A stretch of 64,000 nt of DNA from Cupriavidus agavae (GTDB lineage: Bacteria > Pseudomonadota > Gammaproteobacteria > Burkholderiales > Burkholderiaceae): positions 310,001 through 374,000 of the forward strand of contig NZ_SGXM01000001.1 in the NCBI RefSeq assembly GCF_004217045.1, in the 5' to 3' direction. Numbering within the stretch: the stretch's first letter is position 1; each line of letters opens with the position of its first letter. Below are positions 31,949 to 35,377 of this stretch, in pieces. Below the pieces are notes generated by a model. That model saw only the letters and a program-made list of their open reading frames with translations. It had not been told where the DNA came from and did not search any database. The position numbers were made by a program, and so were the translations under genes.

Positions 31949-32378
31949 GTTGCCGGGGCGCGGGACGCCCCATGACGGCACGATCCTCGCGTTCGACTAC
32001 GGCGAGAAAAAAATTGGCGTGGCGCTCGGCAACTTCATCACCCGGCAGGCGCGCGCCCTCACCATCGTTCCCAATCTCTCGGTGGAAGGCCGCTTCGCGG
32101 CGGTTGGCGCGCTGATCGACGAATGGACGCCCGTGCGCCTGGTGGTCGGCATGCCGGTCAACCCGGACGCCGCGCCCGGCGAGCCGGAACAGCCTTCGAT
32201 CAAGCTGGCGCGCCGCTTCGGCAACCAGTTGAACGGCCGCTTCGACCTGCCCGTGGAATGGGTGGACGAGCGCTATTCCTCGCGTGCGGCGTCCATGGCC
32301 GGCGCGAAGCGCGGTGCGCTCGACGCCGAGGCCGCCCGGATCATCCTGCAACAGTATTTCGACGAACTCCCGCTATGA
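31941..32378 (+). CDS. ruvX: Putative pre-16S rRNA nuclease / Holliday-junction resolvase-like YqgF
   Basis: RNase H-fold protein involved in 16S rRNA 5'-end maturation in Escherichia. The 145-residue product has [17 protein letters not shown] (first catalytic Asp), VVGMPVNPD, the Glu-containing [13 protein letters not shown] and the C-terminal Asp in [15 protein letters not shown]. The start ATG overlaps the yqgE stop by 8 nt, with GAGGCGGGG as ribosome site. Its stop overlaps pyrR (ATGA). The catalytic acidic residues appear intact. Confidence 0.94.
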
Positions 32379-32899
32379 ACCAGACCTCCACACCCGACGC
32401 CGAGGCGCTGTACCACGCGCTGCGCGACCAGGCCCAGGCCCTGATGCCGTCCAGCGACCGTGCGCGCTGGTCGGTGGCGGGCATCCATTCGGGCGGAGCC
32501 TGGATCGCTGAACGGCTGGCGGCCGATCTCAAGCTCGGCGGGCATGGCGTGATCAACGTTGCGTTTCACCGCGATGACTATGCAAAGAAGGGTCTTCATA
32601 GTCAGGCGCAATCGACAACGCTGCCGTTCGACGTGCAGGACCGCAACGTGCTGCTGATCGACGACGTGCTGGCCACCGGCCGCACGATCCGCGCCGCGGT
32701 CAACGAACTGTTCGACTACGGCCGTCCGGCGCGCGTGGCGCTGGCCGTGCTGGCGGACCGGGGCGGCCGCGAGTTGCCGTTCGCCGCCGACTATGCCGCC
32801 GCGACTGTCGACCTGCCGCAGGACAAGACCCTGGTGCTGTCGCGCCAGGGCGAGGGTGCCGCCACGCGCTTCGCCTTCGCCACCGAAGCGCGCGCCTGA
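32375..32899 (+). CDS. pyrR: PyrR family bifunctional pyrimidine regulator / uracil phosphoribosyltransferase
   Basis: In Bacillus PyrR binds pyr mRNA for attenuation and also converts uracil plus PRPP to UMP. This 174-residue product has the PRPP-binding motif [20 protein letters not shown] (about 89-108), followed by [27 protein letters not shown], typical of the family. ATGA overlap with ruvX. Being directly upstream of pyrB and pyrC' matches the pseudomonad operon. Whether it regulates here is open; the RNA feature downstream at 33960-34073 is one place to look. Confidence 0.93.
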
Positions 32900-32988: not shown

Positions 32989-33960
32989 ATGACCAAGACG
33001 TTCCGCAACCCGCAGCTCACCAAGAACGGCGAGCTCAAGCATCTGTTGTCGATCGAGGGGTTGTCGCGTGACATGATCACGCACATCCTCGACACCGCCA
33101 GCCAGTTCGTTTCGCTGTCGGATTCCGACCGCGAGGTCAAGAAGGTGCCGCTGCTGCGCGGCAAGAGTGTGTTCAACCTGTTCTTCGAGAACTCGACGCG
33201 CACCCGCACCACGTTCGAGATCGCCGCCAAGCGGCTGTCGGCCGACGTGCTGAACCTGAACATCAACGCGTCGTCCACCAGCAAGGGCGAATCGCTGCTC
33301 GACACGATCAACAACCTGTCGGCCATGTCGGCCGACATGTTCGTGGTGCGCCACGCCAGCTCGGGCGCGCCGTACCTGATCGCCGAACACGTGGCGCCGC
33401 ATGTGCACGTGATCAATGCTGGCGACGGCCGCCACGCGCACCCGACGCAGGGCCTGCTGGATATGTATACGATCCGGCACTTCAAGAAGGATTTCACAAA
33501 CCTGACGGTGGCAATCGTCGGCGACATCCTGCACTCGCGGGTGGCCCGCTCCGATATCCACGCGCTGACCACGCTCGGCGTGCCCGAAGTGCGTGCCATC
33601 GGCCCCCGCACGCTGCTGCCCTCGGGGCTCGAACAGATGGGCGTGCGCGTCTTCCACAACATGGAAGAGGGCCTCCGGGGCGTGGACGTGGTGATCATGC
33701 TGCGCCTGCAGAACGAGCGGATGAGCGGTGCGCTGCTGCCGTCGGCGCAGGAATACTTCAAGGCATACGGCCTGACGCCCGAGCGCATGGCGCTGGCCAG
33801 GCCCGACGCCATCGTGATGCACCCGGGCCCGATGAACCGCGGCGTCGAGATCGATTCGGCGGTGGCTGATGGCCCGCAATCGGTGATCCTGAACCAGGTG
33901 ACGTTCGGCATCGCGGTACGCATGGCCGTCATGGGCATCGTGGCCGGCAACAACGACTAG
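32989..33960 (+). CDS. pyrB: Aspartate carbamoyltransferase catalytic subunit
   Basis: Makes carbamoyl-aspartate, the committed step of pyrimidine synthesis. The 323-residue product starts [20 protein letters not shown] and has the carbamoyl-phosphate site [19 protein letters not shown] (about 61-79). It also has [12 protein letters not shown] (about 151) and the aspartate-binding MLRLQNERM. No pyrI regulatory gene is near, consistent with class A ATCases that pair with PyrC-type subunits. The usual ribosome site is absent before the ATG. The stop TAG is the first part of AGGAGG, which begins the palindrome downstream. Confidence 0.97.
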
Positions 33961-34073
33961 GAGGCACTATCAAAATGATTCTGGCGTCGTTGCGCGACCT
34001 TGCCGTACCACTTGTACTGTCTGCGGTCGCGCGCCTAGCCAGAACCGCTTCGCTTCCTTTTGATAGCGCCTCC
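33960..34073 (+). repeat. Large imperfect palindrome between pyrB and pyrC'
   Basis: Outer arms at 33960-33975 and 34058-34073 pair over 16 positions with one mismatch (GGAGGC, then A or G opposite, then CTATCAAAA). A middle stem pairs TTCTGGC (33979-33985) with GCCAGAA (34038-34044), an inner stem pairs GCGCGACC (33992-33999) with GGTCGCGC (34025-34032), and GTAC palindromes sit in the loop. Together they fold most of the intergenic region into one long hairpin. The size and shape resemble ERIC-like or MITE-like dispersed repeats, but no second copy occurs in this window. Confidence 0.85.
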
Positions 34074-34106
34074 CAAGGCGGGCAACGAAAAAAGAACCAG
34101 ACATGA
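33975..34106 (+). CDS. Possible 43-codon reading frame between pyrB and pyrC'
   Basis: ATG at 33975, preceded by a strong AGGAGG at 33959-33964 (10-nt spacing), opens a 43-residue frame (MILASLRDLAVPLVLSAVAR... ending KKNQT). Its TGA overlaps the pyrC' ATG (ATGA). For: ribosome site, overlap, and the lack of a good site for pyrC' itself. Against: it uses codons rare in this genome (GTA, CTA, AGA, CGA) and lies inside a palindrome that may be a mobile repeat. No family is recognised. If translated, it would couple pyrC' to pyrB. Confidence 0.35.
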   Translation: MILASLRDLAVPLVLSAVARLARTASLPFDSASQGGQRKKNQT

Positions 34107-35377
34107 AGATTCACATCCAGGGTGGCCGCCTGATCGATCCGGCCGCGAACCTCGACGCCGAACAAGATCTGTTCATCGCCGCCGGCAAGGTGGTGGGCGT
34201 GGGCCGCGCGCCCGCAGATTTCAACGCGAACAAGACCATCGACGCACGCGGCATGATCGTGTGCCCGGGGCTGGTGGACCTCTCGGCGCGGCTGCGCGAG
34301 CCGGGCTTCGAACACAAGGCGACGCTGGAATCGGAAGTGGCCGCGGCCTCGGCGGGTGGTGTCACGAGCCTGATCTGCCCGCCCGACACCGACCCCGTGC
34401 TCGACGAGCCGGGCCTGGTCGAGATGCTCAAGTACCGCGCCCGCAAGCTGAACCAGACGCACGTGCACCCGCTGGGCGCGCTGACCGTGGGCCTGAAGGG
34501 CACCACGCTGACCGAGATGGGTCAGTTGACCGAGGCTGGCTGCGTTGGCTTCAGCCAGGCCGAGGAGCCGATCAAGGACACCAAGGTGCTGCAGCGGGCC
34601 ATGCAGTACGCGCAGACCTTCGGCTTCACGCTCTGGCTGCGCCCGGAAGATCCGTTCCTGGGCGGCGGCGTGGCGGCCAGCGGCGCGGTGGCGTCGCGGC
34701 TTGGGCTGTCGGGCGTGTCGGTGATTTCCGAGACGGTGCGCCTGCATACGATCTTCGAACTGATGCGCAGCACCGGCGCGCGCGTGCACCTGTGCCGCCT
34801 GTCGTCGGCCGCCGGCCTCGAACTGGTGCGCCAGGCGCGCAAGGAAGGGCTGCCGGTGACGTGCGACGTGAACATCCACCACGTGTCGCTGACCGACATG
34901 GACATCGGCTTCTTCAACAGCCAGATGCGCTTCACGCCGCCGCTGCGCAGCGGCCGCGACCGCGACGCCATCGTGGCCGCGCTGGCGGACGGAACCATTG
35001 ACGCGTTGTGTTCGGACCACACTCCGGTGGACGACGACGAGAAGCTGCTGCCGTTCGCCGAGGCCACGCCCGGCGCCACCGGCCTGGAGCTGCTGCTGCC
35101 GCTGACGCTGCGCTGGGCCGCCGAGCACAACGTGCCGCTGGTCAAGGCGCTGGCCCGCATCACCAGCGAGCCGGCCCGCGTGGCCAGCCTGCAGGCCGGC
35201 TCGCTGGCCGCCGGCAGTGCCGCCGATATCTGCGTGTTCGACCCGAAACACGTCTGGAAGGTGGAACGCAACGTGCTGAAGAGCCAGGGCAAGAACTCGC
35301 CGTGGCTCGGCTACGAGATGCAAGGCCGCGTGCGCGCGACGCTGGTGGGCGGCCAGGTCGTGTACGAGCAGCGCTGA
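34103..35377 (+). CDS. pyrX: Dihydroorotase-like protein lacking metal ligands (PyrC'/PyrX, ATCase partner)
   Basis: A 424-residue amidohydrolase-fold protein related to dihydroorotase. In active enzymes the first strand ends DxHxH; here the segment is GLVDLSARLREPG (residues 57-69), with Ser61 and Arg63 in place of both His. The later VHAED-type motif reads LWLRPED, and DHAPH reads DHTPV, while Asp305 is kept. Zinc binding and catalysis are therefore unlikely. This fits PyrC' of Pseudomonas, also 424 residues, which stabilises dodecameric ATCase with PyrB. An active dihydroorotase should exist elsewhere. No good ribosome site is seen; the start overlaps the small frame upstream. Confidence 0.92.
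   Translation: MKIHIQGGRLIDPAANLDAEQDLFIAAGKVVGVGRAPADFNANKTIDARGMIVCPGLVDLSARLREPGFEHKATLESEVAAASAGGVTSLICPPDTDPVLDEPGLVEMLKYRARKLNQTHVHPLGALTVGLKGTTLTEMGQLTEAGCVGFSQAEEPIKDTKVLQRAMQYAQTFGFTLWLRPEDPFLGGGVAASGAVASRLGLSGVSVISETVRLHTIFELMRSTGARVHLCRLSSAAGLELVRQARKEGLPVTCDVNIHHVSLTDMDIGFFNSQMRFTPPLRSGRDRDAIVAALADGTIDALCSDHTPVDDDEKLLPFAEATPGATGLELLLPLTLRWAAEHNVPLVKALARITSEPARVASLQAGSLAAGSAADICVFDPKHVWKVERNVLKSQGKNSPWLGYEMQGRVRATLVGGQVVYEQR

Follow-up and report, generated by a model that had tools for sequence, protein, structure and literature searches.

The closest described systems to the element analysed here are the Correia elements (CREE) of Neisseria, including the NEMIS of N. meningitidis, and, by description, the BRE repeats of Bordetella; the papers on all three are cited for the portions of text available to us. 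In PMC10969869 Correia elements figure as the earliest MITE to be discovered in a prokaryote, and in PMC5039591 they are stated to be unique to Neisseria. Their mover had not been determined as of 2009, according to the part of PMC2649163 at hand. RNase III is reported to bind Correia RNA and to cut or protect it depending on the symmetry of the ends (PMC2649163, PMC10969869). NEMIS have been described with a 46-bp core, and the available text of PMC2267715 contains no link between NEMIS and other genera. BRE resembles the element below in being a dispersed repeat (~90 bp) of Burkholderiales, but has been described as tandem and variable in number (PMC3110155); this comparison is by description only, and Table 2 of that paper, as available, includes neither Cupriavidus nor Neisseria.

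We analysed a 64,000-nucleotide stretch of Cupriavidus agavae DNA (the window; all unlabelled coordinates refer to it), in which a palindrome begins at the stop codon of pyrB. This palindrome, present in some Cupriavidus lineages, is a copy of a dispersed element that has moved in the past, has inserted at stop codons, and combines a conserved apical core with surrounding stems whose sequence varies but whose pairing is kept. The element is kin to the Correia repeats and to a hairpin between pstB and phoU. In our judgement it is probably a formerly mobile, non-coding hairpin of MITE type from a broad family that includes both, moved by IS5-type transposition and processed as RNA once transcribed.

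The palindrome at the pyrB stop codon

The features of the locus are as follows.

32375..32899, + strand: pyrR, 174 aa (NF003545, E 9.8e-72; start computed from the translation length)
32989..33960, + strand: pyrB (NF002032, E 1.4e-124)
33958..33960, + strand: pyrB stop codon TAG, occupying the place of the left target duplication
33961..34072, + strand: whole element, a 112-bp palindrome in three tiers with ends GAGGC...GCCTC (limits from duplication and end analysis)
33961..33976, + strand: left outer arm (terminal inverted repeat), pairing with 34057-34072 and containing an SD-like GAGG
33975..34106, + strand: accidental 43-codon frame, overlapping the pyrC' start in ATGA; no Pfam match
33979..33985, + strand: middle stem, left half TTCTGGC, partner 34038-34044
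33992..33999, + strand: inner stem, left half, partner 34025-34032 (covariation analysis)
34000..34023, + strand: apical core TTGCCGTAC-NNN-TTGTACTGTCTG, common to Correia elements and the pstB-phoU hairpin
34038..34044, + strand: middle stem, right half GCCAGAA (covariation analysis)
34057..34072, + strand: right outer arm (columns 106-121 of alignment A1)
34103..35377, + strand: pyrC', dihydroorotase (NF005791, E 2.9e-242)

A preliminary description, made from the letters alone, had named the PyrR, PyrB and PyrC' genes, and the family models bear these assignments out. The nested three-stem palindrome that it placed at the pyrB stop is real, with arms at 33960-33978 and 34055-34073 (89% complementary) and two more stems nested within, its limits being 112 bp here as against the 114 nt given earlier. 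Direct reading likewise finds the AGGAGG of the left arm (33959-33964) and the complementary GCCTCC of the right arm (34068-34073). Folding of the palindrome and its flanks as RNA gave -69.2 kcal/mol with a z-score of -2.67, and 2 of 200 shuffles folded equally well. This z-score is moderate, only moderately exceptional for the composition; the strong evidence against chance comes from the copies elsewhere and from covariation. A simple scan of 33800-34250 found no sigma-70-like promoter and no terminator-like site within the element, its sole terminator-like site being at 34097-34120 on the opposite strand.

The first function that had been suggested was a pyr-specific cis switch, in which folding would mask a ribosome site and tie the output of PyrB to that of PyrC' in response to UMP or PyrR. 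The position between pyrB and pyrC' with pyrR upstream, the AGGAGG and its complement in opposite arms, and the retention of the fold by all five copies found at pyr loci are in keeping with this idea. It is countered by comparison across genomes: of 60 genomes searched, 59 had pyrC', and in the 30 loci at hand the pyrB-pyrC' spacer held the element in 5, apparent end remnants in 2 and no element in 23. The same hairpin also adjoins other genes in other loci. The window had no Rfam match at gathering score; its four sub-threshold matches (E 0.12 to 2.7) were far under the gathering scores and none was a pyr element. Nor did any of the other sequences searched reach a gathering score, namely three copies from Cupriavidus, three pst loci and a locus from Neisseria. 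The earlier remark that pyrC' has no good ribosome site of its own holds in 30 of 30 loci, none of which has an SD-like site before pyrC', and so the hairpin cannot be the cause of its absence. On the empty sites and unrelated neighbours we reject a pyr-specific switch; the comparative data largely refute it, and we regard it as very improbable. A PyrR-bound leader or attenuator is likewise unsupported, there being no match at gathering score to a described regulatory RNA family in the window.

The five pyr copies differ at the place of the left duplication, where the stop codon is TAG in the window and TAA or TGA in the other four. In two of them (L009 and L010) a G-C pair of the middle stem has become A-T, with both sides changed. 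The carriers do not form a single clade on the pyrB tree, which pairs the window genome with G008, its nearest PyrC' relative, and the site in G008 is empty. The elements of the carriers are 93-98% identical to that of the window; fourfold sites of pyrB differ by 21-34% between the window genome and the carriers. The pyr copies are thus more conserved than expected of a decaying insertion. Constraint, short exchange between species and repeated insertion can each explain this identity.

Two further observations concern the same spacer. In L084 (G050) and L087 (G035) the non-coding spacer beside the element is identical while the pyrB genes stand apart on the tree, which suggests, from the sequences, a short exchange between species. 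Separately, L079 (G036) and L090 (G004) have short pyrB-pyrC' spacers that resemble end remnants of the element, TAAG...GCGCCTCCC, and are possibly deletion footprints.

The 43-codon frame ending in an ATGA overlap with pyrC' exists as a string, and the preliminary description had allowed that the masked ribosome site might serve to translate it into a small protein. Its ATG is preceded by GAGG, many copies of the element keep the frame open across the core, and open frames have also been recorded in a 107-bp Correia element (available text of PMC2229807). We could score the frame in 65 of 70 copies, the other 5 being dropped because the start of the core was not found. The ATG was present in just 39 of the 65, the remainder having AAG, ACG, AGG or AAT, and several copies had frameshifts. 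Among distinct variants of the frame, 24 of 68 were synonymous (35%, against 33% expected), and no Pfam match was found. With an unconserved start, no codon-level constraint and no Pfam match, a small protein-coding gene was ruled out; that the frame should nevertheless be translated into a functional product strikes us as extremely improbable.

Dispersed copies, their ends and a candidate mover

The search of the genome and its relatives that had been proposed as a check returned dispersed copies. A second copy in the window genome (L002, G000:C1:599967-600083) is 92% identical, and a LysE-type exporter gene takes its stop codon from the left arm of this copy. Matches at E <= 0.001 were obtained in 44 of 119 nearby genomes, the window genome included, with at most seven candidates scored per genome (several genomes reached seven) and with a query that carried a few flanking bases, so that the copies may lean towards pyr-like flanks. 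A covariance model, R1, which contains no Neisseria copy, was derived from 68 of the 70 copies collected. It matches 33957-34074 of the window with E 4.8e-48, by construction, and within the order it detected the element in 87 of 399 genomes, the window genome included, and in 48 of 158 genera, with at most nine candidates scored per genome. In G030 we also noted three versions of ~190 bp (L135, L136 and L137), in which one half of the core contains an additional internal palindrome.

The copies end in GAG...CTC. With the ends held fixed and unfitted, 19 of the 70 copies have an exact TAA or TTA duplication, where ~1 would be expected (1 in 64; p 1e-18), split into TAA 10 and TTA 9. The window copy has TAG on the left and CCA on the right, and hence no intact duplication. 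Next to the right end, CCAA stands on the 3' side in 12 of the 70 copies, the window's included and none of those with an exact duplication.

By size, by the lack of a transposase and by its terminal inverted repeats, the window element has the form of a MITE. Target-site duplication is seen for the family (the 19 of 70), though not intact in the window copy itself, and empty sites are found in relatives, both in the 23 of 30 pyr spacers and for copy L035, whose flanks are contiguous in the eight relatives listed (70-75% identical). The second reading in the preliminary description, a mobile palindrome with an accidental frame, therefore stands on the copies, duplications and empty sites, whereas the name given to it there was off the mark: the ends are IS5-type and the core is Correia-like.

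Candidate movers were found within the genus, among insertion sequences of the IS5-family group NF033580 (IS5_3), which share GA[AG]...CTC-type ends with CAAAA and a TAA duplication in G030 and G055, but which carry a transposase; the one that was fully read (L134) is without the hairpin core. In G030 a complete element of 913 bp is bounded by a perfect inverted repeat of 16 bp, GAGGCCAGTTCAAAAA, has a TAA duplication and carries a transposase in two frames, and G055 has 903- and 906-bp relatives with a TAA duplication. The repeats of these elements (GAGGCCAGTTCAAAAA; GA[AG]G[GC]CCTAACAAAAT) belong to the MITE type without being identical to the MITE ends. The closest match, 16 of 17 positions, is between copy L061 of G022 and an end repeat at contig edges of G055; within G055 the best agreement is 13 of 17, and the window end agrees with the contig-edge repeat at 12 of 17. 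We found no insertion sequence with ends equal to those of the MITEs of the same genome, and ends of this kind were absent from most of the IS5_3 matches examined, some weaker cases (L328) aside. At E <= 1e-10 the window genome gives a single IS5_3-type match, a partial one (E 6e-17), and the element is therefore probably immobile there today.

On the reading that we favour, IS5-family transposases using GAG...CTC ends and duplicating TWA would have moved the Cupriavidus copies, with a TAA stop codon presumably both the target and the repaired product. Where a genome is rich in GC, one would expect TAA to occur chiefly as a stop codon. Because a duplicated TAA restores the stop codon, the position at the pyrB stop needs no regulatory reason.

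Conserved pairing, the apical core and orientation

To assess pairing, we used alignment A1, in which two of the 70 copies were dropped as duplicates (L004, L065) and two were left out (L066, L073). The 66 distinct rows contain 129 pairing cells with double changes, against 26.6 in shuffles, and 22 pairs with double changes, against 9.4; for both measures 0 of 500 shuffles reached the observed value. In the outer helix, 15 of 16 pairs have changes on both sides across copies; one outer pair, formed by columns 10-116, fails to pair in 35 of 65 cells. A1 was not selected by the core pattern, and the core hardly varies in it. Covariation alone is no proof of RNA function, since related sequences and arm-to-arm correction can inflate the counts.

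Orientation was scored by open frames rather than annotated genes. A coding-like frame ended at the left end in 37 of the 70 copies, at the right end in 9 and at both in 4, with 3.7% (left) and 3.4% (right) among 350 shifted control tests. A second sample of 80 copies, picked by score with a model that contains a few flank columns, gave 43 left, 14 right and 3 both (control 3.75% left and 8.75% right of 400); counting one-sided cases, 40 were left and 11 right (p 6e-5). The ends of the second sample had been refitted with a bonus for matching duplications, and its 31 duplications in 80 copies (TAA 16, TTA 11, TGA 2, TTG 2) are therefore inflated. When both samples were pooled, copies with an exact duplication leaned less to the left (22 to 11) than the remainder (58 to 12; p 0.08). 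At this p-value between the duplication classes, selection acting after insertion is only suggested.

Once within the pyr transcript, the element would fold into a long hairpin and be processed or bound. RNase III probably acts on it, by analogy with Correia and NEMIS RNA, and the hairpin may thereby give the pyrB and pyrC' messages different fates. From the long, nearly symmetrical ends and the location between pyrB and pyrC', cleavage of the window copy is predicted. ProQ was also considered as a reader of the hairpin; the words Correia and CREE are both absent from the main text of PMC7272453. The element encodes no protein and is not a pyrimidine sensor, and a more general role as an intercistronic RNA hairpin is possible.

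Relatives between pstB and phoU and in Neisseria

Allowing at most one mismatch, the core pattern was found in 10 of 398 genomes of the phylum, the window genome included, and a reversed-pattern control in the same 398 genomes had zero among the matches listed. Four of the ten belong to one family (f55), which from its gene order we take to be Pseudomonadaceae, or Pseudomonas-type. In this family, 36 of 198 genomes have exactly one pattern match each. We read 32 of these loci, with gene names from family models: 30 lie between pstB and phoU, directly 3' of the pstB stop and in sense orientation, and two lie elsewhere and have MITE-like ends. In the 27 distinct pst copies (alignment A3, two identical rows dropped), 97.2% of cells pair, and there are 100 double-change cells against 31.2 in shuffles, with all slides far lower. 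Two of the five covariation measures are not clearly above shuffles, namely the number of pairs that changed on both sides (13, shuffles 10.8) and the number of pair types (20, shuffles 21.9). The apical GTAC pairs are invariant in these 27 copies, which were themselves chosen by the apical pattern; since the core was the search key, its constancy in pattern-found copies proves nothing.

A second model, R2, was built solely from these pstB-phoU copies. It matches 77 of the 198 genomes of the family, 56 of them at E below 1e-18, and 34 of the 56 have the pattern. Of the 22 without it, 20 were read, and in 20 of 20 the match lies between pstB and phoU. The core is largely kept in these pattern-less copies: 18 of the 20 retain TTGCCGTAC, and in one GTGC/GCAC stands in place of GTAC/GTAC, so that the apical hairpin itself shows a paired change. 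In all, the pstB-phoU position holds in 50 of the 52 genomes of the family that were read (loci L429-L458, L337, L338 and L479-L498). R2 also matches the window at 33953-34069 (E 3.7e-15), and R1 matches the pst copies given to it with E 9e-20 to 8e-10. The pst hairpin and the window element thus share reciprocal model matches, the apical hairpin, and a sense position just after a stop codon; they differ in that the pst hairpin has one conserved place and outer arms of other sequence. To judge from its sequences the pst hairpin is apparently vertically inherited, and we found no published name for it. In the same family, two genomes of one genus (g361), G848 and G871, had 13 and 17 matches to R2, with at most 18 scored per genome.

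These data bear on the main alternative, that the element is a purely selfish MITE fossil in which recent spread and hairpin-mediated correction between arms keep the arms and core, the message being unaffected. The target duplications and the recent-looking copies fit such a fossil, as does the near-even split of TAA 10 and TTA 9, which is that of orientation-blind insertion, and arm-to-arm correction could likewise yield the double changes. The sense bias at gene ends is not what it would lead one to expect, and neither are the single conserved pstB-phoU place, with its covariation, and a core that is nearly invariant in A1 and largely kept in the 20 pattern-less pst copies. A purely selfish origin of all these features is unlikely in our view, if far from negligible.

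The preferred reading, of a once-mobile hairpin within a broader family, extends to Neisseria. At least 108 stretches from named genomes contain the apical pattern TTGCCGTACNNNTTGTACTGYCTG, for which ~0.23 occurrences would be expected by chance in 257 Gb. Among the matches listed are Cupriavidus, Ralstonia, Acidovorax, Methylobacillus, Vogesella and many Neisseria, as well as the gammaproteobacteria Regiella and Avibacterium. In many of the Neisseria loci (e.g. L203, L206 and L233) the core is surrounded by the published Correia end strings (as given in the available part of PMC5039591), and in L192 and L253 by variant ends. R1 was run on 28 of the 80 pattern loci listed and matched 28 of 28, L221 only at the apex (positions 41-71); selection by the core pattern lends part of the score. 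All seven Neisseria loci, pre-chosen by the 24-base core, were matched over 118 positions with E 2e-17 to 6e-8: N. dentiae 2e-17, N. bergeri 3e-14, N. sicca 2e-13, N. viridiae 4e-13, Neisseria sp. L192 6e-12, N. gonorrhoeae 9e-11 and Neisseria sp. L256 6e-8. Two Regiella loci were matched with 9e-10 and 2.5e-6, and Avibacterium with 2.5e-8.

The window element and CREE/NEMIS are thus alike in a full-length model match and in having the same apical core and inner stem. Both are palindromic and dispersed and belong to a similar size class (112 bp against the 104-108 bp type; PMC2649163), and one variant of the Correia end, TATAGTGGATTAACAAAA, is similar in its inner half to Burkholderiales ends, GAGCCGCTAACAAAA. 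The outer ends are different, however, reading GAGGCACTATCAAAA in the window element and TATAGTGGATTAA... in the published 26-bp Correia repeat (PMC5039591), and on this account we class the window element as a relative of CREE and not as a CREE. The duplication is TWA here, compared with TA at the termini of Correia elements (PMC2229807). Placement differs as well: 76 of 123 copies in gonococcal FA1090 are 5' of a gene (PMC2649163), whereas the copies here often follow a stop codon.

The Correia repeat, described as Neisseria-only, therefore appears to be a single branch of a much broader family. The open-licence literature, as far as its text was available to us, did not yield a paper that treats such repeats in Cupriavidus, Burkholderia or Pseudomonas, or one that describes the pstB-phoU hairpin or a wider family; a prior description elsewhere is possible. 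A family that spans many Burkholderiales genera and some gammaproteobacteria provides a candidate for the Correia mover, the IS5_3 group with its TWA or TA duplications, and the pstB-phoU hairpin, with one copy per genome by pattern, offers a clean place to probe what the core does.

We tentatively propose a more specific model, which is possible though on balance we would not yet expect it to hold in full. The conserved unit would be the apical RNA or DNA hairpin, recognised by a factor of beta- and gammaproteobacteria, travelling inside differing transposon ends; on at least one occasion, between pstB and phoU, it would have become fixed as an intercistronic processing element. Correia elements would be its neisserial branch, mobilised by IS5-type transposases, and sense copies after stop codons would be kept and would tune the downstream gene.

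The IS5_3 loci of four Neisseria genomes included no insertion sequence in which we saw Correia-like ends. In Candidatus Regiella, three IS5_3-family elements (L299, L311 and L324) have ends TATAG..., resembling those of Correia elements; such a resemblance is suggestive only as a lead to the Correia mover. L299 and L311 have a TA duplication, and one end of L324 reads TATAGCACTGTTAACAAAG.
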